NCBI GenBank assembly: GCA_013152375.1
Contig: JAADGM010000072.1
Coordinates: 1-34,599, forward strand
Length of the DNA: 34,599 bases
Origin: FCB group bacterium
GTDB taxonomy: Bacteria; Fidelibacterota; Marinisomatia; SCGC-AAA003-L08; JACNLC01
Reading direction: 5' to 3'
Positions 88 through 15,306 of this stretch are shown here, one piece after another. A program made the position numbers and the translations under genes. The first letter of the stretch is position 1. Each line of letters starts with the position of its first letter. Below the pieces are notes generated by a model. That model was not told the origin of the DNA, made no database searches, and saw nothing but the letters and a program-made list of their open reading frames with translations.

Positions 88-813
88 TCATTTAGCTGCC
101 GTCACCATGATGGAGGTCGCTAAAAACGGTATGGAGGTTGTATCATTTTTAAACAGTGTCTTTCTAAAGAATCTCTGCAGCGGCGCCCATTTTATAACAT
201 CCATAGGCGCTGTGATGTAGTGCAGTTCAATATTTGAGAATCCTGCAGAGATCAGGATCTTCAGGATATCTTTTTTCCGGTAAATTCTGGCCTTGGCATA
301 CTTATCGTGCAGCTTTTTCGGCAGCCAGGAAAAGAAGGGCACGCGATTCCATGGGAGGACGGGCAGATAGGCTCCGTGTGTTTCGAAAATCCACCACCGG
401 TTAGGCACAGAGATAGCCACTCGTCCCGAAGGCTTTAGTTTGTGATAGATATTACGAGCCGCCTGATAGTCATCTTTGACATGTTCCAGAACTTCAAAGG
501 AGATGATCCTGTCAAATTCCCGGTCAGGACAAAATTCACCGGTTGCATCCTCCTGCGAATAACTCACGTTGGAAAGCTTCAGGCTCTCTATTTTCTTTTT
601 CAGCTGATCGAGATTCCGTGCATCCACATCAATACCATGACAGATACCAAAATGGCCGGATAACTTGATGAGGCTCCCGCCATTCCCACAACCCACATCC
701 AGTAAGGAGTATGCTTCCCCCGTAAATCCTTCGACCGCTTTTAAAATATTGATCCGTCTTGTGACGATGAAGTCATCATAATCGGCTGTTTTTCCTCTGG
801 CAATCGTTTTCAT
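88..813 (-). CDS. Class I SAM-dependent methyltransferase
   Basis: A 241-residue cytoplasmic protein with the Rossmann-type methyltransferase fold. Motif I (LLDVGCGNGG, about residues 37-46) binds S-adenosylmethionine. An acidic residue follows strand 2 (GIDVD, 60-64), and the motif FEVLEHV (106-112) is typical of the UbiE/Methyltransf_11 and _25 groups. The C-terminal half (PNRWWIFETHGAYLPVLPW) resembles lipid- or glycan-associated methyltransferases, but the substrate cannot be told from sequence. It starts 15 nt after the beta-helix gene stop and is followed within 7 nt by another frame, so it is probably co-transcribed. The family is sure and the substrate unknown. Confidence 0.85.
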   Translation of the reverse strand: MKTIARGKTADYDDFIVTRRINILKAVEGFTGEAYSLLDVGCGNGGSLIKLSGHFGICHGIDVDARNLDQLKKKIESLKLSNVSYSQEDATGEFCPDREFDRIISFEVLEHVKDDYQAARNIYHKLKPSGRVAISVPNRWWIFETHGAYLPVLPWNRVPFFSWLPKKLHDKYAKARIYRKKDILKILISAGFSNIELHYITAPMDVIKWAPLQRFFRKTLFKNDTTSIPFLATSIMVTAAK

Positions 814-828
814 GCAGGATCTGTCATT

Positions 829-3489
829 CTATTTTAACAAAATAAGTTTCCGGGTTTCAACCGTCGGGCCAAGTCTGATCCTGGCCCAATAGATGCCGCT
901 GGCATAATTGACGGCGTTCCAGCTCACGGAATAGTGATTGCCCGGCTGCGTATTCCTGACCAATGTTTCAACCTCTTTACCCTGTAAATTGAAGATGGCG
1001 ATCTCAACGTCCGTTTCATCAGGGATTGTATATTCGATGGTCGTAACGGGATTAAAGGGATTTGGGTAAGCCGCACTGATGGTGGTCCCGGTTGGAATGT
1101 CCTGTATTTCTCCTTCAATACGCCGGCCGGTCCAGTCGCTGATGAGCATGTCCGACACTTGCATATCTCCCTCGTACATCAGAATGGAATCGTTCTGCAG
1201 CGACGCACCTGACGGGCTGAAAAACAGGATAATTCCGCTCTCGCAGTAGAATTCCCAACTCTCCGGAAGCAACACTTCCCTGATTTGAAAATTCCCGCTT
1301 ACCCGGAGTTGTCCTCCGGCTATCGGCCCGTCGGTTTGTAACCGCATCAAATTATCATTTAGACTTAACCTGGCGAATGCAGGTTGAACAGTCGGTATTA
1401 GCCGATCCTGTAAAATCAGATTAATCAGGAGGATAATATCTAAAATATTGATAACTCCATCCTGGTTGAGGTCTGCCAGCACAAACTCACCCCCCGGCAG
1501 GCCACCGTAAATGATATAATTAACCAAAATGATGATATCGAAAATGTTGAGGGTGGCATCATGGTTCAAATCACCGATGAGTCCCGGGACTATGCTTTCA
1601 ACCGCACCCATATCAGGTGCATTCCCGCTATATTCATCCGCCGATAAATCGACGATAACGGTCCCATCAACTTGATAATAATCGGTGCCTGCGTCGATAC
1701 AGGGGGAACCCGTCTGGAGTGAAAAATCACCGTTGTCCGGGTCCATAAACAAGGGGACTGAATTCAGGTTGCCCTCTCCCCAGTTAACATCTCCTGCCCA
1801 ATGGTTGAATCCGGCTTCACCACCCATGACATCAGAATAAGCCATTTCGAGCGCCGCGTAACTGGCAAGATGGATTTGTTCCGGAGTATTATCCCAAATG
1901 ATAGAGTTAACACTCACCACCGGGTCGCTGTTCAAGAGGAATAGCCCTCCTCCTGCACCCCCAGCCGAATTATTAACAACTGTCGTATTTATCAAAATCG
2001 GCCCCGATCCATCGTAAATATATATGCCGCCGCCATCCGTAAGGGTCGTATTGTCTGCAATAATTGAATTTCTGAAAATTGGATCACAGTGATTATCCAG
2101 ATGTACTCCCCCGGCATGAGTCATGGTCGTATTCCCCATAATTATTACGCTGTCCAGTACCGGATTTGAGTGATTCCAGCAGAAGATCCCACCTCCGCGG
2201 GAATAAGCCCAGTTGTTGAGTATCCTGACATTTTGCAAAATAGGACTTGAATAAGCATTCATGACGATACCGCCTCCATCCTCCTGGACAGAGGTATTAT
2301 TGGCCACCACGGTGTTGCTGATGGAAGGGCTTGAATGCACAAGAAAAATACCGGCGCCTTCGGCGCTGCCTCCTCCGTCGGCTGTATTACCGTTAATGTT
2401 CAGGGCCGTCATTAAAGGATTGGAATAACGACAGTATATTCCGCCGCCGAAAAAACCGATATTATCGGTAATGATGAGGTTCTTTAAGGTTGGGTCGGCA
2501 TTATCGCAGAAGATGCCGCCGCCTCTGCCGACGTTCAAATTTCCACCGATATTTCCACTGCCATGCGTGATGGTAAAGCCGCTTAATATTGCTGTGTTGT
2601 TTTCGTCATTCTCAAAAGTTACTACACTGGCCATTTGACCGCCGTCAAGAATGGTCTGATAGATATAATTCGTATCCCCTGTAAAAGTGAACATCGATGT
2701 CAGGAGCAGGTTTTCGCCGTTGAAATTAATATTTTCATAATAAACTCCCGAGTGAACCAGAATGGTGTCGAGTTCCTGTGACACGCCGATGGTATGCTGA
2801 ATGGTCTCGAATGGATTCTCCACCGTTCCCGTTCCGGATTCATCCGAGCCGGTGTTGGCTACATGCCAGATATGGTCACTGGCATAAATGCAACTTCCGT
2901 CATCAATGATATTTTCAGGTTCGTAATTGAGGGCGGTCTGATCCGTGCAGCCCGTGCAGGTTGAACCATCTCCTTCACAGACTCCGCAAATATCAAAGAC
3001 GTTGATCTGACAGTATAAGCTGTCATTTTTATCTAGATAATTGTTCACCCAGCCGCTATATAAATGACAGGCTTCGATTGAGACCGAAGCGTTCCCCCAA
3101 CTATCACCGTCCAGATCCTGCCAAATTGTTTGTGTTTCTTCACAACATTCACCGAGTTCGTCCAATACCCAGGTTCCATCACAGGTGCCGTTACAATCTA
3201 TGATATTTGAAAAACATCCGTCATCCGGGTCATCATCATTTATAACCCAATTTTCATAATCCAGACAGGCAACGGCGGAACTGTCCGGATTCCCAAGGCC
3301 GTCTCCGTCGTTGTCATACCAAACGGTGAAGGGTTCGTCACAACAATCGCCAAAATCGTCTTCAATGCAGGTGATTATTATTTCTTCCGGGGTGTACGGA
3401 AGCCGTTGAATTAAATCATTTGCAGTAATAAAAACTAAACCTGGAAGGCCAGATAGGGTGACTATGATAATTTTTTTATATGTATTCAT
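829..3489 (-). CDS. Secreted parallel beta-helix protein with dockerin and YPNPFNP sorting domain
   Basis: An 886-residue exported surface protein. After a hydrophobic N terminus comes a Cys- and Asp-rich stretch (about 40-200) with calcium-loop-like pieces (DNDGDGLGN, DLDGDSWGN) and a CTDxxALNYxP...DDGSC motif seen in FCB surface proteins. Residues about 205-600 begin with a DUF1565-like lead-in (HVANTGSDESGTGTVENPF) and contain many GGGI(Y/F)C / NNT turns of a right-handed parallel beta-helix (pectate-lyase/PbH1 type). A two-part dockerin-like repeat lies at about 637-693 (GDLNHDATLNIFDI, ADLNQDGVINILDI). The last ~80 residues are a C-terminal sorting domain (AAYPNPFNPVTTIEY ... ASGIYWARI ... 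LLK). No catalytic residues are recognised, so it may be an adhesin or a polysaccharide lyase. The ATG at 3489 has a GCGGGG element a few bases upstream. Confidence 0.85.
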   Translation of the reverse strand: MNTYKKIIIVTLSGLPGLVFITANDLIQRLPYTPEEIIITCIEDDFGDCCDEPFTVWYDNDGDGLGNPDSSAVACLDYENWVINDDDPDDGCFSNIIDCNGTCDGTWVLDELGECCEETQTIWQDLDGDSWGNASVSIEACHLYSGWVNNYLDKNDSLYCQINVFDICGVCEGDGSTCTGCTDQTALNYEPENIIDDGSCIYASDHIWHVANTGSDESGTGTVENPFETIQHTIGVSQELDTILVHSGVYYENINFNGENLLLTSMFTFTGDTNYIYQTILDGGQMASVVTFENDENNTAILSGFTITHGSGNIGGNLNVGRGGGIFCDNADPTLKNLIITDNIGFFGGGIYCRYSNPLMTALNINGNTADGGGSAEGAGIFLVHSSPSISNTVVANNTSVQEDGGGIVMNAYSSPILQNVRILNNWAYSRGGGIFCWNHSNPVLDSVIIMGNTTMTHAGGVHLDNHCDPIFRNSIIADNTTLTDGGGIYIYDGSGPILINTTVVNNSAGGAGGGLFLLNSDPVVSVNSIIWDNTPEQIHLASYAALEMAYSDVMGGEAGFNHWAGDVNWGEGNLNSVPLFMDPDNGDFSLQTGSPCIDAGTDYYQVDGTVIVDLSADEYSGNAPDMGAVESIVPGLIGDLNHDATLNIFDIIILVNYIIYGGLPGGEFVLADLNQDGVINILDIILLINLILQDRLIPTVQPAFARLSLNDNLMRLQTDGPIAGGQLRVSGNFQIREVLLPESWEFYCESGIILFFSPSGASLQNDSILMYEGDMQVSDMLISDWTGRRIEGEIQDIPTGTTISAAYPNPFNPVTTIEYTIPDETDVEIAIFNLQGKEVETLVRNTQPGNHYSVSWNAVNYASGIYWARIRLGPTVETRKLILLK

Positions 3490-3833: not shown

Positions 3834-3905
3834 TAGCGCATAGGGGAATCGAACCCCTGTTACCGGCGTGAGAGGCCGACGTCCTAACCCCTAGACGAAT
3901 GCGCC
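3834..3905 (-). tRNA. tRNA-Glu (anticodon CTC)
   Basis: An intact cloverleaf: acceptor GGCGCAT/ATGCGCT, D-arm GTCTAGGGGTTAGGAC, anticodon stem TCGGC/GCCGG with loop CTCTCAC (anticodon CTC), and T-arm AGGGG-TTCGATT-CCCCT. CCA is not encoded. It lies 22 nt upstream of tRNA-Arg on the same strand. It is the apparent parent of the degenerate tRNA-like copies in the repeat array immediately upstream. Confidence 0.95.
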
Positions 3906-3976
3906 AATTCTGGTGTCTCACTCAATACAGTTAATCATTAACTGCATGTAAATCCGTTTTCACTTCAAAAAGCATT

Positions 3977-4036
3977 GGCGAACCCCTGTTATCCCGTCCG
4001 CAGGACGGGACGTCCTAACCCCTAGACGAATGCGCC
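3977..4036 (-). pseudogene. tRNA-Glu-like remnant, copy 1
   Basis: On the minus strand the first ~26 nt match tRNA-Glu exactly (GGCGCATTCG...GGAC). The anticodon arm is replaced by CCCGTCCTGCGGACGGG and the 3' acceptor strand is lost. A short TGGCG/CGCCA stem can still close the structure. It cannot decode glutamate because there is no anticodon loop. Confidence 0.8.
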
Positions 4037-4106
4037 AATTCTGGTGTCTCACTCGATACAGTTAATCATTAGCTGCACGTAATCCGTTTTCAAATCAAAA
4101 AGCACT

Positions 4107-4166
4107 GGCGAACCCCTGTTATCCCGTCCGCAGGACGGGACGTCCTAACCCCTGGACGAATGCGCC
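4107..4166 (-). pseudogene. tRNA-Glu-like remnant, copy 2
   Basis: Same organisation as copy 1, with one change in the D-arm (CTAGG to CCAGG on the minus strand). The GC palindrome is intact, and the closing TGGCG/CGCCA stem is kept, with GTGCTTTTTG following it. Confidence 0.8.
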
Positions 4167-4236
4167 AATTCTGGTGTCTCACTCGATACAGTAATCATTA
4201 ACTGCACGTAAATCCGTTTTCACTTCAAAAAGCACT

Positions 4237-4283
4237 GGCGAACCCCTGTTATCCCGTCCGCAGGACGGGACGTCCTAACACCT
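4237..4283 (-). pseudogene. tRNA-Glu-like remnant, copy 3 (truncated)
   Basis: The GC palindrome and truncated T-arm are as in the other copies. About 13 nt of the acceptor 5' strand and D-arm are deleted, so this unit is only 117 bp long. It also carries a C to A change (plus strand) after cgtcctaa, shared with copy 4. Confidence 0.8.
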
Positions 4284-4356
4284 AATTCTGGTGTCTCACT
4301 CGATACAGTTGTCATCAACTGCAGATAATAATCTGATAATCACTTCAAAAAGCACT

Positions 4357-4416
4357 GGCGAACCCCTGTTATCCCGTGCGCAGGACGGGACGTCCTAACA
4401 CCTGGACGAATGCGCC
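4357..4416 (-). pseudogene. tRNA-Glu-like remnant, copy 4
   Basis: Full-length remnant closest to tRNA-Gln. One base of the palindrome is changed (plus strand CCCGTGC instead of CCCGTCC), giving one mismatch in the stem. It shares the cgtcctaaca variant with copy 3. Confidence 0.8.
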
Positions 4417-4474
4417 AATTCTGGTGTCTTATTGAATAAACGACCCGGTTGATACAGCCTTTGGCTGTTTTCTG

Positions 4475-4647: not shown

Positions 4648-6159
4648 TTATTTCATTAGTACAACGCGGGAAGTCTGTGTCATGGTCCCGCTGGTAAGCT
4701 GAATGAAGTAAATGCCTGAAGGAAAATTACCCGCATCCCAGCGGTATGTGTGAGTCCCCACGGACTCAAACCCATCATGGATGACGTCCACGACCTGTCC
4801 CTGCAGGTTCACCGCTGTCATTTTTACATTGCCATCCACAGGAACTGAAAATGTAATCCCGGTTGTGGGATTGAAGGGATTTGGAAAGACACTATCCAGT
4901 GAAAATCCATAGAGGCCGGTCTGGATAATATTATCGGATAAGGATTTGGTTAAGCTCAACTCAGACCCGTCTGCCCCTGCGACGATAATATTCACATCGG
5001 CAGGTGTCAGTCCGGCTCCGCCTTTAATAACAAATTCTGCCTGATTCTGATTAAAAGGTGTATTCAGCATGGAGAAAGCAATCATACGATTGATGCCATT
5101 CTGAAACCTTTGATTCACCGTAATATGGAAATTATCGTTCAGTTCGAAAGGCATTTCATCACCGGAAAAGCCCATTTCAACGCCGCTGAATTCCACATCT
5201 GCCCTGATTGTGACCAGCAGATCGGAACCTTGGGGTGTGAAGTTAACAAAGGCTGTGCCCGACAGGTCATCTGTGGCTCTGGCGAAGTTATTGACAATAA
5301 GATTTATCATCTGGATAACATCCAACACGTTGATCACACCGTCTCCGCTGTAATCGGCATCACCGATGGTGCAGCTGTCAAAATCAGGTGAATTAATACC
5401 GCCACTGAGAATGATATTAACGGTAGTCACGATATCAAGAATATCGATGACCATGTCATCATTGATGTCACCTGCCATGTTGTTGCAGTCGTCACACACA
5501 TCTCCGAGGCCGTCTCCGTCAATATCTTCCTGACCGGGATTATAGTCATTGGGGCAATTGTCATCCTCATTCAGGATGGAATCGTCGTCCATATCAGGAT
5601 TATTTTGCGGACAATCGTCCAGCATCTGCTGGATTTTTTGGTTGGCCACATAAAAATTAGTCTGATTGGCTTTGTAATAAACCTGCATTTCATGTGTCAG
5701 GAAAACGGTACTCGGGATTGCGTTGCCGGTGTTAAACCAGTTGAACATGTGGTCACCGTAGCCATTTCCGTCATTTGTTATCAGGGGATAGCCGGGAGTT
5801 CCCATATCACCCCACTGTTCACAGGTATAAGGTTGGTTCATATCCATGAGTGCTGTCATGATCATCACCTGATCATTATCTTCCCATTCCTGGGCAATAC
5901 TATCGAATTCAGGAATAAACGCAACACAGGGTCCGCACCATGTGGCTGACATATCGATCATGGTAACATACCAGTTTCCGCCGTTTGTTGCTCCATTGAG
6001 ATCGGCAAGACTCAGCATTCCGTCCGGCCAATCGCCATAGCAGACATTAAATTCAACCTGCTGATCGTCCGCCGCAACATAATCATTCAGATTATACACG
6101 GAGGAAAAGGCAAAAGTACAGAACATAAGAAGGAGTATCATTAGGGAGTATTTTTTCAT
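4648..6159 (-). CDS. Secreted thioredoxin-fold protein (Cys form) with dockerin and sorting domain
   Basis: A 503-residue exported protein. It has a signal peptide (1-~20) and a thioredoxin-like domain with the redox site WCGPC (C75, C78). Conserved CYGDWP (40-45) and YTCEQWGD cysteine motifs follow. A TSP3-like calcium repeat (DxDDDSILNEDDNCPND..., about 187-225), a dockerin-like pair (about 228-290) and a C-terminal sorting domain from VFPNPFNPTTG (about 424) to VVLMK complete it. It probably acts as a surface- or periplasm-exposed thiol-disulfide protein. It is the Cys homologue of the two TGA-containing genes just upstream (36-bp gap) and serves as the internal reference for their alignment. 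SD GAGGAACTT precedes the ATG, and a terminator follows. Confidence 0.85.
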   Translation of the reverse strand: MKKYSLMILLLMFCTFAFSSVYNLNDYVAADDQQVEFNVCYGDWPDGMLSLADLNGATNGGNWYVTMIDMSATWCGPCVAFIPEFDSIAQEWEDNDQVMIMTALMDMNQPYTCEQWGDMGTPGYPLITNDGNGYGDHMFNWFNTGNAIPSTVFLTHEMQVYYKANQTNFYVANQKIQQMLDDCPQNNPDMDDDSILNEDDNCPNDYNPGQEDIDGDGLGDVCDDCNNMAGDINDDMVIDILDIVTTVNIILSGGINSPDFDSCTIGDADYSGDGVINVLDVIQMINLIVNNFARATDDLSGTAFVNFTPQGSDLLVTIRADVEFSGVEMGFSGDEMPFELNDNFHITVNQRFQNGINRMIAFSMLNTPFNQNQAEFVIKGGAGLTPADVNIIVAGADGSELSLTKSLSDNIIQTGLYGFSLDSVFPNPFNPTTGITFSVPVDGNVKMTAVNLQGQVVDVIHDGFESVGTHTYRWDAGNFPSGIYFIQLTSGTMTQTSRVVLMK

Positions 6160-6195: not shown

Positions 6196-7749
6196 TTATT
6201 TCATTAATATTGTTTTGACAGTTTTCACCTGATTTCCGGCGATGAGTTTTATGTAATATACTCCGGATGGCAGTGCGGCTGCATTCCAGGTGTAGGCATG
6301 ACTCCCCACCGATTGAAAGCCTTCAAAAACAGTAGCGACCTGTTGTCCCATTACATTGTAGGCGATGAGGCTCACCAGGCCGTCTGTGGCGACTGTAAAA
6401 GAGATTTCGGTCGCAGGATTGAACGGGTTTGGATAGACGCTGTTAATTTCGAATGAATAGGGACCATTTTGTACGGCGTAATCGTCGTAAGTACGCGTCA
6501 GCTCCATAGCATCCCCTGAAGAACTGCCAACCACGATATAGATGTTATCGGGGTTCAGCCGGCCTGAACTATCTAAAGTGAGTTCTACCAGGTGGCTGTC
6601 AAAAGGGTTATTCAGCATTGAATATCCCACCAGTCGGAAAACTCCATCGGTAGTAGCTGACATCAGCTGTATGTGGCTGTTGTCTTTCAACTCGACCCCT
6701 GAAATTTCAGAATTGACTGCGGCAAGTTCAATGCCGCTGATATCCACATCCGAGTGAATGGTGATGTGCATCTGCTCATCCCGGGTGTAGAAATTGACCG
6801 TGGCTTTCCCCTGGTCAAAAAGCTCGACAGCGCGCTCAGATCCGTTAACAATGACATTGATAATCTGTATCACATCGAGGATGTTAATGATCCCGTCCGA
6901 GTTGAAATCAGCGTCCGATTTGGCACAATCCGTATAATCCGGTGAGCCTATACCACCTGCCAGAATCATGTTCACGACCGTAACGATATCCAAAATATCA
7001 ATGGCCATATCGTCATTCACATCGCCGGCAAAATTGCTGCAGTCATCACAGGCGTCTCCCAGACCGTCTCCGTCCGAATCCATCTGATCCGGGTTATAGT
7101 CGTTGGGACAGTTATCATTTACGTTTTCAATCCCGTCTCCATCCATATCAACATTACTGCAGGGTTCACATTCATCCAGTAATTGCTGAATAAAATCATC
7201 CGAATTGCCGCCGACACAACCGTCGATGTTATAGCATTCCGATTCCCAGTTGCTGTTGTTGGTGTAAGTCCAGGTTTTGGCCCTGACCCGCATCTCATGA
7301 TCAATGATAACATAGGATGGCCAGGCATTGTAGTGGTCGTGAAACCAGTTAAAAAAAGTATGGTCCGGATCGTCAATGATAACCGGAATACCGGGTTCCC
7401 AGAAATCACCCCATTGTTCACATGTATAGGGCTGCCCGATATCTGAAAGTGTATTTAAGAATTTTACGTGAGGATTATCTTCCCAACTCATCGCATGATT
7501 GTCCATCGGCCCGATGTCACTAAAACAGGTGCTTCACCAACTGGCTGCCATATCGATAAATAAAATATAATAATCACCGCCATTAACGGCACCATTGAAA
7601 TCGGCTAAGGTCAATTGGCCGCCGGGATAATCTCCATAGCAGGTATCAAAGACCTGATTTTGATGATTGTCACTGATAATATCTCCGGCATTGTAGGTTT
7701 GAGAAAGTGCAAAAAACAGGAACGGGATCAAAAGTAGTGTTTTTTTCAT
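6196..7749 (-). CDS. Putative selenoprotein: secreted thioredoxin-fold/dockerin protein, in-frame TGA at residue 72
   Basis: Read through the TGA at 7536-7534, the gene encodes 517 residues: signal peptide (MKKTLLLIPFLFFALSQ), thioredoxin-like domain, TSP3-like repeat (about 200-238), dockerin pair (about 242-301) and YPNPFNP sorting domain (about 437-517). The TGA replaces the first active-site cysteine: AASW-TGA-STC, against SATWCGPC in the neighbouring paralogue, with the resolving Cys at 75. The frame is open on both sides and homology continues without shift or gap (IGPMDNHA..., YTCEQWGD, DHEMRV). The ATG at 7749 is chosen because AAGGAGAACACA precedes it; a longer open frame to 7818 lacks this. 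The likely product has a U-x-x-C redox site. A gene caller would split it into two. The alternative is a pseudogene with one nonsense change. Confidence 0.72.
7504..7516 (-). promoter_or_regulatory. Candidate bacterial SECIS hairpin (second TGA gene)
   Basis: Starting 18 nt after the TGA at 7534, the minus strand reads CATCG-GGC-CGATG, a 5-bp stem with a 3-nt loop beginning with G. The loop G is about 22 nt past the TGA. This fits published bacterial SECIS rules (short upper stem, small loop with G in its first two positions, 16-37 nt from the UGA). Confidence 0.5.
7534..7536 (-). other. In-frame TGA, candidate selenocysteine codon
   Basis: This TGA is flanked by TGG (Trp) and AGC-ACC-TGT (Ser-Thr-Cys) and aligns with the first Cys codon of the WCGPC site in the paralogue at 4648-6159. 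Confidence 0.7.
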
Positions 7750-7857: not shown

Positions 7858-8709
7858 TTACCCTGTGATATTGCCAATGAGAACAATGATGTCGAGAACA
7901 GTGATGGCTCCGTCCAGATTGACGTCAGCATCCGATAATGCACAGGCGCTGTAGCCGGGTGCATTATTGCCTCCGGTCATGATCATGGCAATGATCGTAA
8001 CAATATCCAGGATATCGACCGCCTGATCATCATTGACATCCCCCGGGAGGGTGTCACAATCATCACAGGCATCTCCGAAACCATCCCCATCCGAGTCAAT
8101 CTGTTCAGGATTATAAGTACCGGGACAGTTATCTGCCAGATCATTCAAACCGTCTCCGTCAAAATCAGTTTCGCCGCAAGGACCACAGGCATCGAGTAAC
8201 TGCTGAATGGTCTCGTCCGTATCTCCGTAGGGTCTGGGTTTCGCAGCCACCCGCATTTCGTGATCGAGCACTGCATGATAGGGATAGGCAATACCGTCAT
8301 TCAGCCAGTCCCGTACAGTCCCCGGGTCTTCGAAAATAACGGGAATCCCCGGAATTCCGAAATTACCCCACTGTTCGCACGAATAGGGAAAATTCAGATC
8401 TGCAAGTGCAACAATGAAGACAACATTGGGATTATCTGACCAAAATTGCGCATGTTCATCCATCGGACCGATGTTATTGAAACAGACGCTTCACCAGGTT
8501 GCCGAAAGATCCACAACGGTGATATAATAATGACCGCCGTTCAGTGCCCCGTTAAAGTCTGCCAGTCTGATCTGATCGGATGGATAATCACCGTAGCAGA
8601 CATCGAAAACTGTATTTTGATCCTCGAGACTGATAGTATCGCCGATATCATAGGTTTGAGAAAAAGCCACAGCAAATAAGGCTGTGCACAACACAAATTG
8701 TTTTAACAT
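7858..8709 (-). CDS. Putative selenoprotein: secreted thioredoxin-fold/dockerin protein, in-frame TGA at residue 73
   Basis: Read through the TGA at 8493-8491 this is a 283-residue exported protein: signal peptide (MLKQFVLCTALFAVAFSQ), thioredoxin-like domain with LSATW-TGA-SVC (Sec73, Cys76), conserved CYGDYP and YSCEQWG motifs, TSP3-like repeat (about 181-219) and a dockerin pair that forms the very C terminus (about 223-283). Unlike its two paralogues it ends right after the dockerin and has no YPNPFNP sorting domain, so its attachment must differ. The ATG at 8709 is preceded by TGGAGTTCAGGA. It is the first gene of a three-gene tandem family; 108 bp separate it from the next paralogue. 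The alternative reading is a nonsense pseudogene, but the same codon is TGA in both genes. Confidence 0.72.
8461..8473 (-). promoter_or_regulatory. Candidate bacterial SECIS hairpin (first TGA gene)
   Basis: The minus strand reads CATCG-GTC-CGATG from 18 to 30 nt after the TGA at 8491. Position and stem are identical to the hairpin of the other TGA gene, with one base change, in the loop only. The stem codons encode the shared residues I-G-P-M, so amino-acid conservation alone could also explain it. Confidence 0.5.
8491..8493 (-). other. In-frame TGA, candidate selenocysteine codon
   Basis: This TGA is flanked by TGG (Trp) and AGC-GTC-TGT (Ser-Val-Cys) and aligns with the first redox Cys of the Cys paralogue and with the TGA of the neighbouring gene. 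Confidence 0.7.
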
Positions 8710-11645: not shown

Positions 11646-13247
11646 TTATTCCTTAAACCTTCGCCTTAAGGAACTTAACAGGTGAAGTGGTCCGGAGGAA
11701 CTTTTTTCACTGAGCAATCGGCCTTCTGTCCCTTTCAAGCTCCTGGTTTCTGTAAAATCCCTTTCAAAACCTACACCGCCGTCGCTGTACACGGCAAGAT
11801 AATAAAGGCCGTTAACAAGATCATAGACATTGATTACGATCTCCGGCTGGGAGTCGGTATCCAAATTACCTGCATACGGCCCCAGCATCGTTCCGGACAG
11901 CGGTTCACTCTGCCAGAGGAGTTCTCCGGTAGCGCCATCGAGGACGAAAAACGTGCAGGAGTCCTGTAAAGCAGCATTTGTATAATTCCGTCCTGCGATA
12001 ATCTCAGTGATTCCGTCTTCATCAATATCGGCGGAATCGATCCACGAGAGCCATCCGCTGAAAGTGGGAGACTCCCATAAAGGCACCTCTGCCCCTGGTG
12101 TGAACAGTTGAATATTGAAAGCGGGAGTTTCTGTGTCTATGCCTGTAATGACTGCCTCAGGGGAGTCATCGTTTTCGATATCAGTCAAATCCTGCAAGAT
12201 TAACCTGTCCCAGTCAGCTTCCCACAAATACCATAACACGGACCAGGCTTGAGAGCCGTCAAAGACTGTAAGTGTATTGCCCCATTCCTTGGTCAGGTCC
12301 GGCGTACTATCCTGATTAATATCAAACAGCAGGTGGCCATATTCCAGGATATCCTGTTCCACTGACCATATTTCCTGAAAGGCAGCATAATGGTCCGGTG
12401 AAGCGGTGAGGATCAAATCCACGAGGTTCACGATGTCAAGCACATCAAGCTGACCGTCAGGATTCAAATCGCTGCAGGGTGTTAACTGCAGCTCACAGCT
12501 GTCTAGAATACAGGATACCATGCCCACGACATCAAGTATATCGGTAGCATCGTCCTCGTTCAGATCACCCTGCTGACAATCCGCACCGCTCTCAGCGAAG
12601 GCGAAGAGTGTATACAGCCCGTTGGTGAGATCATATCGATTGAAAATGAGTTCCATAGCTCCGTCATTATCCATATCACCGGCATATACACCGTACAGGT
12701 AGCCTGAGATCGAATCACTCTCCCATTCCACATTACCCGTCAAGCCGCTTAAAACCACGATCAGACTGGTATAGGTTTCAGCCCCTGTCCTGGTACTGTA
12801 CCCCAGAATGATTTCCTCAATTCCGTCGTTATCCACATCTGATACGGCCAATCCTCCGATATAACCCGGGAACTCAGCTGACTGCCAGAGTGGAACCGTA
12901 CTGCCCACCGGAATTGCCTGCACCGTGAAGGATAAGGTGTCCGTAAGGTTTTCCCCGAGAAACAAACCAACCGTACCGCCGCCAGGGCTCATTTCAAGAA
13001 CCCGATCCAGCGTGAAATACTCGTAACTGCTGTCCGCAGCTGACCAGATCATCGACCAGTTGTCGCCGCCGTCATACAGGGTAACGCTGTTTGGGTATTG
13101 TTTGGTCAATTCGTTAATCCCGTCCCCGTTAGTATCAAAATAAGGATGCCCGTATTCCAGTCCATTTTGATCAATTTGCCATTCCAGCTGGAGTTGGGGG
13201 AACAGGCAGGAGAAAATTAATGAGAGCATAAACCCTGTTTTTTTCAT
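11646..13247 (-). CDS. Secreted FG-GAP/VCBS-like protein, internally duplicated around a dockerin
   Basis: A 533-residue exported protein (signal peptide ending near FPQLQ). Two ~200-residue halves are clearly homologous. The first starts LEWQIDQNGLEYGHPYFD (about 21) and the second IWSVEQDILEYGHLLFD (about 293). Both contain FG-GAP-type calcium loops such as VSDVDNDGIEEIILG and SADIDEDGITEIIAG. Between them, at about 227-281, lies a dockerin-like pair (GDLNEDDATDILDV, SDLNPDGQLDVLDI). There is no YPNPFNP domain; the C-terminal tail is basic (LLSSLRRRFKE). These repeats usually build beta-propellers, so the two halves may together form one propeller interrupted by the dockerin. It lies 16 nt downstream of the urea-transporter/M23 gene. 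The function is probably binding or adhesion. Confidence 0.75.
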   Translation of the reverse strand: MKKTGFMLSLIFSCLFPQLQLEWQIDQNGLEYGHPYFDTNGDGINELTKQYPNSVTLYDGGDNWSMIWSAADSSYEYFTLDRVLEMSPGGGTVGLFLGENLTDTLSFTVQAIPVGSTVPLWQSAEFPGYIGGLAVSDVDNDGIEEIILGYSTRTGAETYTSLIVVLSGLTGNVEWESDSISGYLYGVYAGDMDNDGAMELIFNRYDLTNGLYTLFAFAESGADCQQGDLNEDDATDILDVVGMVSCILDSCELQLTPCSDLNPDGQLDVLDIVNLVDLILTASPDHYAAFQEIWSVEQDILEYGHLLFDINQDSTPDLTKEWGNTLTVFDGSQAWSVLWYLWEADWDRLILQDLTDIENDDSPEAVITGIDTETPAFNIQLFTPGAEVPLWESPTFSGWLSWIDSADIDEDGITEIIAGRNYTNAALQDSCTFFVLDGATGELLWQSEPLSGTMLGPYAGNLDTDSQPEIVINVYDLVNGLYYLAVYSDGGVGFERDFTETRSLKGTEGRLLSEKSSSGPLHLLSSLRRRFKE

Positions 13248-13263
13248 CGTATTCTATGGTTTC

Positions 13264-15306
13264 CTATGTTTTGTGTTGGATTTTGATCAGCGTCATAATT
13301 TTATCGCTGCGGTCAACAAGAGACATTTCACTCAGACGTCCTGACGGGTCGATTACAATTTTGCGGTTCGCCGTGATCACAACCATGCAGCCCGGCATCC
13401 GTTCGGAAGCCCTGACCTCACCGTCTTTCCACTTGAATCCATCCCGGAGTATTTTCGGCAGGATCAGCCGTTCACCGACGATGTCAATCCATAATGACGG
13501 ATTGATCAGCGACGGGTAAGTTTTGAAATCAGGCCGGATTTCGATGAAATGCGGCATATCGATGATGTGCCAAAGCCGGTTATCCTTTCCCAGAATTGCC
13601 GGATTTCCGAATTCATCCGTGGAGAAGGTCAAACTCTCTCTGAATTTTAAAAGCGACTCCCGGACCCGATACACCCAGACATCTGTTTCTTTTCCCAATA
13701 ATGTCCAGAGGGGAAGCGTGTCGGATTCAAGAGGTCCCACGCGTGCGTCGTGTTCAGGGACAAAGTGAACCAGTATCTGACCATTCATGAGGCCTTCGGA
13801 AAAATTGGCAGGGATCGTCACAGAGGATAATCTGCCTTCCTGCTGGAGTTGATAATGGATATGCGGCACCGGAGAGCGGCCCGAATTTCCGCAATACCCG
13901 ATGAGTTCGCCTCGCTGCAGATATTGGCCGGGTTTCACAACCACGCTGCCCTGCTTCAGATGACTCAGCTCACTGTATTCGCCGTTCTGATGATCGATGA
14001 TCACATAATTGCCCCAATTCTGCTCTGTATTGGCGGTCTGGGGAGGGTTGTCATTCACACGGTTTTCAACGGCAAACACCATCCCCGGAGCCGGGGCCAG
14101 TACCGGGAGACCATAGGCGTAATAATCTTCAACACGGTTGCCAAACCCTTTGAGCTGACTGCCGGATTGATCCCGTACTACAAAATCCCAGGCATATCTG
14201 CCCGTCCCCTTATGAGTCCACTCTCCGTCATTGCCCTGAAGCACCGACCACTCCCCAAGAAAAGGCATTGTCAGGAGCGTTTTCTGTCTGGAAGAATAGA
14301 GTACCCAGCGCCGATACCAGCGCAGATTGGATTCCGGGCTCTTGATCAGGTAAAGGGGAATGGGAACAGGCCGTTTGCTGTTTTCGGGCGACAGAATATT
14401 CTTGAGGGGAAATAACAGGAGTATCGCCACGAGATTAAAGGGGAAAATCAATAATGGCAGTCCGCTGGATTGCAGTAATTCTCGTGTCCCGGCTTCCACC
14501 AGACCCACCATCAGAATGGCAGCAGTCATCAATCCCACGGATCTGAAGCTGTGCACTACAAAAAAGCCCCCCATCGCCAAGGCGATAAGTACATAATTAA
14601 GCCCGTCAAAACCGATCAGCGAGCCGTGGATAAAAACATAAACCAGCATGCCCAGAAAACCGCCCCATAGCCCGGCTATAACCGATATTCTGGAATAGAT
14701 GGCTATCGCCGCAAGCACCAATACTCCGGAAAGTAAATTACTCTGGAAGAAAATACTTCCAAACATTTTCAGGTACTCAAACAGCACATACGGCAGTTTG
14801 CTGAAGAGCCACAGATCGATATTCTGCAAACCTGTGAATGAGGTTAAAGCGGTCTCATGGCCTGCGGCGGTCCCGGGCGTCAGCAGCAGCAGCCAGACTA
14901 CAGCCGTGAAAGGAATGCTCAGAATTGGCAGATCATACTTCGCAAAATATCCGGCAAGCGCAGTTGACAGGATTCCGGCCAATCCTGCACCCAGAATGAG
15001 CAAGACCCAGATCTTCATTGAAGGCACGCTGTATTTTGCCAAAGCCAGGCCCACCAGAATTCCGTTCACACCGAAAATTCCGCTTTCCCGAACAGCGCGG
15101 ACGGGGTGCAGCCAACGAGCAGTGAGGCTGGCGATCAGGTTTCCGGTGATGCCCATGAGCCCGGCCAGAGGATAGTAAAAAGTGGCCAGGAGCATAAGTG
15201 TGGCCGGAACAGGATGAGGCGCAAAAGCCACTACCCCGTATGATTTCAGACAGGTTCGCAAGTAGGCCAGGGGTTCAGCTGTCGCTTTGGATGAGGAGTG
15301 TTTCAC
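13264..15306 (-). CDS. Urea transporter fused to M23-type metallopeptidase domain
   Basis: A 680-residue membrane protein. Residues about 20-320 hold some ten hydrophobic segments with urea-transporter (UT, PF03253) features (the early GLMGITGNLIAS and GIFGVNGILVGLALA stretches), a passive urea channel family. Residues about 390-510 are a LytM/M23-like domain: HKGTGRYAWDF, VLAPAPGMVFAV, YSELSHLKQGSVVVKPGQ, and VPHIHYQLQQ, which carries the HxH zinc-ligand motif. A further ~150 residues follow with no recognised fold. UT-M23 fusions are known in some bacteria but not characterised. The start is GTG at 15306, 28 nt after the decarboxylase gene stop, so it belongs to the same gene run. No urease gene is in the window. 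Confidence 0.82.
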   Translation of the reverse strand: MKHSSSKATAEPLAYLRTCLKSYGVVAFAPHPVPATLMLLATFYYPLAGLMGITGNLIASLTARWLHPVRAVRESGIFGVNGILVGLALAKYSVPSMKIWVLLILGAGLAGILSTALAGYFAKYDLPILSIPFTAVVWLLLLTPGTAAGHETALTSFTGLQNIDLWLFSKLPYVLFEYLKMFGSIFFQSNLLSGVLVLAAIAIYSRISVIAGLWGGFLGMLVYVFIHGSLIGFDGLNYVLIALAMGGFFVVHSFRSVGLMTAAILMVGLVEAGTRELLQSSGLPLLIFPFNLVAILLLFPLKNILSPENSKRPVPIPLYLIKSPESNLRWYRRWVLYSSRQKTLLTMPFLGEWSVLQGNDGEWTHKGTGRYAWDFVVRDQSGSQLKGFGNRVEDYYAYGLPVLAPAPGMVFAVENRVNDNPPQTANTEQNWGNYVIIDHQNGEYSELSHLKQGSVVVKPGQYLQRGELIGYCGNSGRSPVPHIHYQLQQEGRLSSVTIPANFSEGLMNGQILVHFVPEHDARVGPLESDTLPLWTLLGKETDVWVYRVRESLLKFRESLTFSTDEFGNPAILGKDNRLWHIIDMPHFIEIRPDFKTYPSLINPSLWIDIVGERLILPKILRDGFKWKDGEVRASERMPGCMVVITANRKIVIDPSGRLSEMSLVDRSDKIMTLIKIQHKT

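Follow-up and report, generated by a model that had tools for sequence, protein, structure and literature searches.

An in-frame TGA very probably read as selenocysteine in a thioredoxin-like gene with dockerin and type IX secretion domains

Main finding

In a 34,599-nucleotide stretch of DNA from an FCB group bacterium (the window; contig JAADGM010000072.1), gene A is, with a probability that we put at about 0.96, a selenoprotein gene in which the UGA at codon 72 would be read as selenocysteine (Sec). An earlier note had proposed this reading, and it was borne out by conservation of the TGA among homologues, the presence of Sec machinery in the genome, purifying selection, and covariation of a hairpin in the family; these, like the domain assignments, are read directly from the sequences. 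Its product would be one of a large family of Sec thioredoxin-like proteins, apparently exported, in a group of uncultured bacteria.

Results

Three adjacent paralogues

The features of interest lie on the minus strand, in window coordinates.

6196 to 7749, minus strand: gene A, ATG start, TAA stop, 517 residues with the TGA read as Sec
7534 to 7536, minus strand: gene A TGA, codon 72, putative Sec, sole in-frame TGA, context AASW-TGA-STC
7504 to 7516, minus strand: putative bSECIS of gene A, CAUCG-GGC-CGAUG, 5-bp stem, loop 22 nt after the UGA
7858 to 8709, minus strand: gene B, paralogue, putative Sec73-x-x-Cys, 283 residues
8491 to 8493, minus strand: gene B TGA, codon 73, context SATW-TGA-SVC
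8461 to 8473, minus strand: putative bSECIS of gene B, CAUCG-GUC-CGAUG, loop 22 nt after the UGA
4648 to 6159, minus strand: gene C, Cys paralogue, SATW-TGC-GPC (WCGPC), 503 residues

The earlier note had described AASW-TGA-STC followed by a long open frame, a good Shine-Dalgarno sequence at the start, a dockerin and C-terminal tail beyond the TGA, and a TGA at the identical position in the neighboring paralogue. All four descriptions agree with what we found: the frame from 6196 to 7749 has 445 open codons after the TGA, AAGGAG lies immediately 5' of the ATG, Pfam detected Dockerin_1 (1.3e-6) and Por_Secre_tail (5.7e-8) past the TGA, and codon 73 of gene B falls in the same alignment column as the gene A TGA, a column also occupied by the Cys of gene C.

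Gene A is made up of a signal-peptide-like start, a thioredoxin-like domain (Sec72-x-x-Cys75), a TSP3-like stretch, a dockerin, and a type IX secretion system (T9SS) tail; gene B has a thioredoxin-like domain with Sec73-x-x-Cys, TSP3, and a dockerin; and gene C has a thioredoxin domain, a dockerin, and a T9SS tail. The signal peptides were judged by eye. Pfam placed the dockerin above its cut-off in all three genes, Por_Secre_tail (PF18962) in genes A and C, TSP3 in gene B (below cut-off in gene A, unlisted for gene C), and Thioredoxin (PF00085) only in gene C (2.1e-6, with 0.069 for gene B and none for gene A). No secretion tail was found by Pfam in gene B, which ends with its dockerin. Such domain layouts presumably suit Marinimicrobia-like bacteria.

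Elsewhere in the window, positions 829-3489 (minus strand) encode another large dockerin and Por_Secre_tail protein of 886 aa, and a single 680-aa frame at 13264-15306 (minus strand) joins a urea transporter domain to an M23 peptidase domain. Rfam at the gathering threshold gave three tRNAs and nothing else in the window. A tandem array at 3878-4429, with 4.3 copies of a 130-base unit, overlaps the tRNA-Glu gene at its end and stops before tRNA-Gln.

Conservation of the TGA

A protein search of 60 genomes, our own included, yielded many homologues that carry one TGA. Among the matches listed, TAA or TAG occurred only where the match covered about 290-310 query residues, and the TAA in the match to window gene B is that gene's own end. 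We took 100 stretches for comparison, 98 of them from matches of the genome searches. A first count based on open reading frames gave 60 TGA and 14 Cys among 74 domains, and was blind to TAA and TAG because the frames are split at these codons. We therefore rely on a blind search, with a profile in which the catalytic column was masked and every stop was shown as X. Its 137 raw domain hits contained 115 TGA codons and no TAA or TAG; with 2 duplicates removed, the catalytic column of 135 distinct domains from 71 genomes held TGA in 109, Cys in 25, and Ser in 1. An in-frame TGA thus aligns with the Cys of homologues, the pattern by which a selenoprotein is recognized.

The other four TGA codons in the 137 hits comprised three at the second position of a UxxU motif and one directly after the first TGA. 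The UxxU forms, with TGA at both catalytic positions, belong to homologues L073, L125, and L127 of genomes G003, G192, and G193. The tandem TGA TGA (W-U-U-PC) is that of L147 in G128, whose near relative G127 has GGA as the second codon; it reflects either an error or a double Sec.

The phylum is represented by 245 genomes, of which 126 gave a match at 1e-8. The 71 genomes examined came mostly from the better matches among those listed; in the stretches fetched from them a TGA form was present in 56, Cys forms only in 14, and a Ser form only in 1. The family is patchy, with no match at 1e-8 in a genome of the same family (G002), and several TGA copies per genome occur in some members of one order (five in the fetched stretches of G006).

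In the congener G001, TGA recurs at the gene A and the gene B positions alike, and gene A of that genome aligns across all 517 codons with the same TGA as the sole in-frame stop. The argument of the earlier note that two chance nonsense mutations at this site are unlikely is strengthened by these two TGAs and by the 109 of 135 domains that share the column; the additional stops or frameshifts that it had suggested looking for in relatives did not appear, either in gene A of G001 or, as TAA or TAG, among the 137 hits. A third thioredoxin-like gene with an in-frame TGA (FAAD-U-QSC) lies elsewhere in our own genome (L175, G000:C121:12500-15800, 428-2614, minus strand); its C-terminus is dockerin-like by eye, and G001 shares its TGA.

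Selection on either side of the TGA

Between gene A and its counterpart in G001, dN/dS was 0.010 before the TGA and 0.063 after it (445 codons, bootstrap 0.039-0.088); the corresponding values were 0.093 and 0.042 for gene B, and 0.062 and 0.059 on the two sides of the same position in the Cys gene C, all of them rough because synonymous sites are near saturation (dS from 0.66 to 1.8). Relaxed selection past the TGA, which would have spoken against a selenoprotein, was looked for, and selection on gene A there was instead strongly purifying. Third positions differing from G001 numbered 0 in the 13 codons right after the TGA and 156 in the 432 later ones for gene A, 2 of 13 and 80 of 197 for gene B, and 5 of 13 and 180 of 415 after the same site in gene C.

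A hairpin downstream of the UGA

As judged from alignment and folding, TGA forms, unlike Cys forms, carry a covarying SECIS-like hairpin downstream. In the class UxxCxxxI[GS], 26 distinct sequences including genes A and B, the predicted hairpin has up to 5 bp and a 3-nt loop starting 22 nt after the UGA. The first loop base is G in 26/26, which is nearly fixed by the choice of class (Gly or Ser there), and pairs (18,28) and (19,27) are partly fixed in the same way. The wobble-wobble pair (20,26) was Watson-Crick in 24/26 against 9.1 expected (p=5e-5), pair (17,29) in 25/25 against 17.9 (p=5e-5), and pair (21,25) in 18/26 against 11.6 (p=0.0014), all by shuffling, which ignores relatedness. The outer pair (16,30) gave no signal (Watson-Crick in 13/26), and among the Cys homologues that share this Ile the wobble pair was formed in 4/14 against 3.6 expected. 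The CQxE class has a 4-bp stem with a GGC or GGT loop 17 nt after the UGA; its pair (13,23) is kept in 24/25, four of them T-A, and its Glu codon is GAG in 24/25 TGA forms and GAA in 8/9 Cys homologues. Because the states of these pairs switch repeatedly on the protein tree (at least 6, 3, and 5 times, unpaired states counted), the covariation is not one inherited change.

Across both classes of catalytic residue, a hairpin of at least 5 bp whose loop begins with two G occurred in 80/104 TGA sequences vs 7/24 Cys sequences. Compared with synonymous recodings, TGA forms folded with a mean z of −1.42 (n=101, p<=0.05 in 33) and Cys forms with a mean z of +0.13 (n=23, p<=0.05 in 1), a difference with a Mann-Whitney p of 8.6e-8. 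The gene A stretch alone was unremarkable (z +0.51): its hairpin stretch gave −4.4 kcal/mol, and the 42-nt stretch prefers another fold (−5.5 kcal/mol, z +0.94). For gene B the values were −8.9 kcal/mol for the 42 nt and −4.2 for the hairpin stretch alone. The gene A stretch has the loop and spacing set out in section 5 of the review that describes the bSECIS model, and falls short of the minimum free energy of −7.5 kcal/mol or lower given in the legend to its Fig 2; the same review states that some genes fail the model (PMC13188914). Because the gene A hairpin is not significant alone, we base the case for a SECIS on the covariation in the family.

A weak hairpin in isolation is also what one might see if the UGA of gene A were a regulated stop, with low, SelB-independent read-through and a short N-terminal piece as the main product, and Sec insertion is commonly inefficient. 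We consider this very unlikely: such a piece would include neither the resolving Cys nor any of the later domains, which are under strong purifying selection, and the hairpin covaries in the family.

Selenocysteine machinery

A selenoprotein presupposes SelA, SelB, SelD, and tRNA-Sec, and our own genome has all four. The tRNA-Sec scored 76.5 bits and was called by ARAGORN as tRNA-SeC with anticodon TCA (UCA); SelA (534.8 bits) directly precedes SelB (384.7 bits) on contig C134; and SelD (374 bits; L088, G000:C72, match 12985-13911) has one TGA of its own at SGSG-U-ACK, which we take to be the known Sec site of this protein. Because SelD itself carries a TGA, it is an independent sign of Sec use in the genome; SelD is listed as a selenoprotein in Table 1 of the review (PMC13188914).

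Among the 60 genomes, SelB was over cut-off in 45 and tRNA-Sec in 45. Of the 31 that bear a TGA form, 30 had SelB or tRNA-Sec and 20 had both; the exception, G039 (58% complete), has a TGA form, yet neither was over cut-off. Neither was over cut-off in five genomes of one family (93-98% complete), and their 10 profile matches had no stop inside and were weak, short, and like general thioredoxins. Machinery was also present in 24 of the 29 genomes from which no TGA form was fetched, and having the machinery is therefore not enough to predict the family.

If UGA had been reassigned throughout the lineage (to Trp, Gly, or Cys everywhere), with no context-dependent Sec, the frame would likewise be open once the TGA was read as a residue. 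However, TGA ends 8 of the 24 window frames taken as likely genes, genes B and C of G001 have TGA where the window genes end in TAA, and TGA occurs in the 137 hits only at the two catalytic positions, save the one beside the first in G128. Given the Sec machinery and the use of TGA as an ordinary stop, we rejected reassignment as extremely improbable. That both TGA genes are pseudogenes or carry sequencing errors, the catalytic codon having been hit twice by a nonsense change, would account for the standard reading frame being cut by the TGA and was also rejected, its probability being close to nil, since the TGA is conserved (in both genes of G001, in 109 of 135 domains, and with no TAA or TAG in 137 raw hits) and the sequence behind it is under purifying selection (dN/dS 0.063 in gene A and 0.042 in gene B).

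The thioredoxin-like family

In the PDB the family profile matched thioredoxins and thiol-disulfide oxidoreductases, 222 sequences in all at E<=0.1, with 4k9z as the best match (1.3e-7); the WCGPC of 4k9z aligns with the Sec motif, and its later Pro aligns with family Pro144, which we assume to be the cis-proline place of TlpA-like proteins. In 32 rows, with Sec written as Cys, Tyr19, Ala69, Trp71, the Sec/Cys position, Cys75, and Trp113 are invariant, and Cys37, Cys110, and Pro144 are among the nearly invariant residues; a disulfide with a structural or relay role may link the first two of these. The gene A domain alone matched no Pfam or NCBIfam family at 0.01; matches to thioredoxin-like profiles were obtained for 10/32 members (PF00085 for gene C, 2.1e-6). 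The family thus combines a thioredoxin-like profile match with a CxxC or UxxC active site. The assignment of a thioredoxin fold draws on these sequence profiles because an AlphaFold2 model with the three window paralogues as input reached a pLDDT of only 36.6. A scan of genome contigs gave one match, restricted to gene A residues 430-517 (the tail region), and a scan of viral contigs gave 22 pattern matches and no relative.

Predicted export, gene order and Sec/Cys exchange

The T9SS component SprA is encoded in the genome (624.8 bits), so that the C-terminal sorting domain of gene A (PF18962, 5.7e-8) has at least this part of a T9SS to go with it; export and a surface redox role for its protein are likely. 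Gene C lies downstream of gene A across a gap of 36 nt. In G000, G001, G003, G004, and G009 a Cys gene directly follows a TGA gene in the same orientation, the two matches being about 20-60 nt apart, and this arrangement suggests a common operon; genes A, B, and C probably belong to the same one. A quick tree of the 135 domains implied at least 10 Sec/Cys changes, 8 of them forced by well-supported branches, a count that comes from one tree with several long branches.

Discussion

From the sequences we infer a course that runs from selenium incorporation to export and surface chemistry. SelA and SelD would make Sec-tRNA(Sec), and SelB would bind the hairpin whose loop starts 22 nt after the UGA and deliver Sec at codon 72; the ribosome would therefore make the 517-residue protein. 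The signal peptide would carry this protein across the inner membrane, and the Por/T9SS tail would target it to the cell surface. In the thioredoxin/TlpA-like domain, the Sec selenolate would be the attacking nucleophile and Cys75 the resolving residue; the reaction, taking place outside the cytoplasm, would be a thiol-disulfide exchange or a reduction of the peroxide type. A further Sec enzyme would come from gene B, and a Cys enzyme from gene C. More tentatively, and with the odds somewhat against it, we suggest that together they form a selenium-dependent redox system outside the cell, with T9SS-exported Sec thioredoxins beside a Cys isoform in one operon and repeated Sec/Cys swaps. In such a system the Sec copies may be the more active version and the Cys copies one that needs no selenium, or the two may act one after the other in a single electron relay at the surface.

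If the family does consist of exported selenoenzymes, selenoproteins extend to T9SS surface cargo, and the question is raised of how a reactive selenol stays reduced once it has left the cell. Neighboring Sec and Cys paralogues, with their repeated exchanges, would lend themselves to the study of what decides between retention and loss of Sec. An exported selenoenzyme family could be missed in this lineage because gene callers that treat UGA as a stop cut the genes or start them late. The terms dockerin, secreted, secretion, sorting domain, T9SS, and Marinimicrobia do not occur in the selenoprotein review (PMC13188914). Among the open-access titles and abstract beginnings listed, none names an exported, dockerin-bearing, or T9SS bacterial selenoprotein, and such a protein may be described elsewhere; one open-access paper contains both 'selenocysteine' and 'type IX secretion', and its title points to no such protein.

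Three known systems come close to gene A. Like the T9SS cargo proteins with a Por_Secre_tail, it has a C-terminal PF18962 tail and SprA in the genome; unlike them, it carries a putative Sec. With TlpA/ResA-like thiol-disulfide oxidoreductases (for example, PDB 4k9z) the family shares its best PDB profile match and the aligned motif and Pro, and it differs in having Sec for Cys, the additional nearly invariant Cys37 and Cys110, and long C-terminal domains. Table 1 of the review, as far as it is available, lists many UxxC thioredoxin-like families, including thioredoxin PF00085, thiol:disulfide interchange, and cd02966 forms (PMC13188914). Our family resembles these UxxC thioredoxin-fold selenoproteins in its thioredoxin-like profile, the presumed Sec in place of the first Cys of CxxC, the existence of Cys homologues, and a bSECIS-like hairpin downstream, and departs from the forms listed there in being joined to a dockerin and T9SS tail and in having, in some members of one order, multiple TGA copies per genome. 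We regard it as a form of this known kind that is apparently exported and has multiplied within an order.
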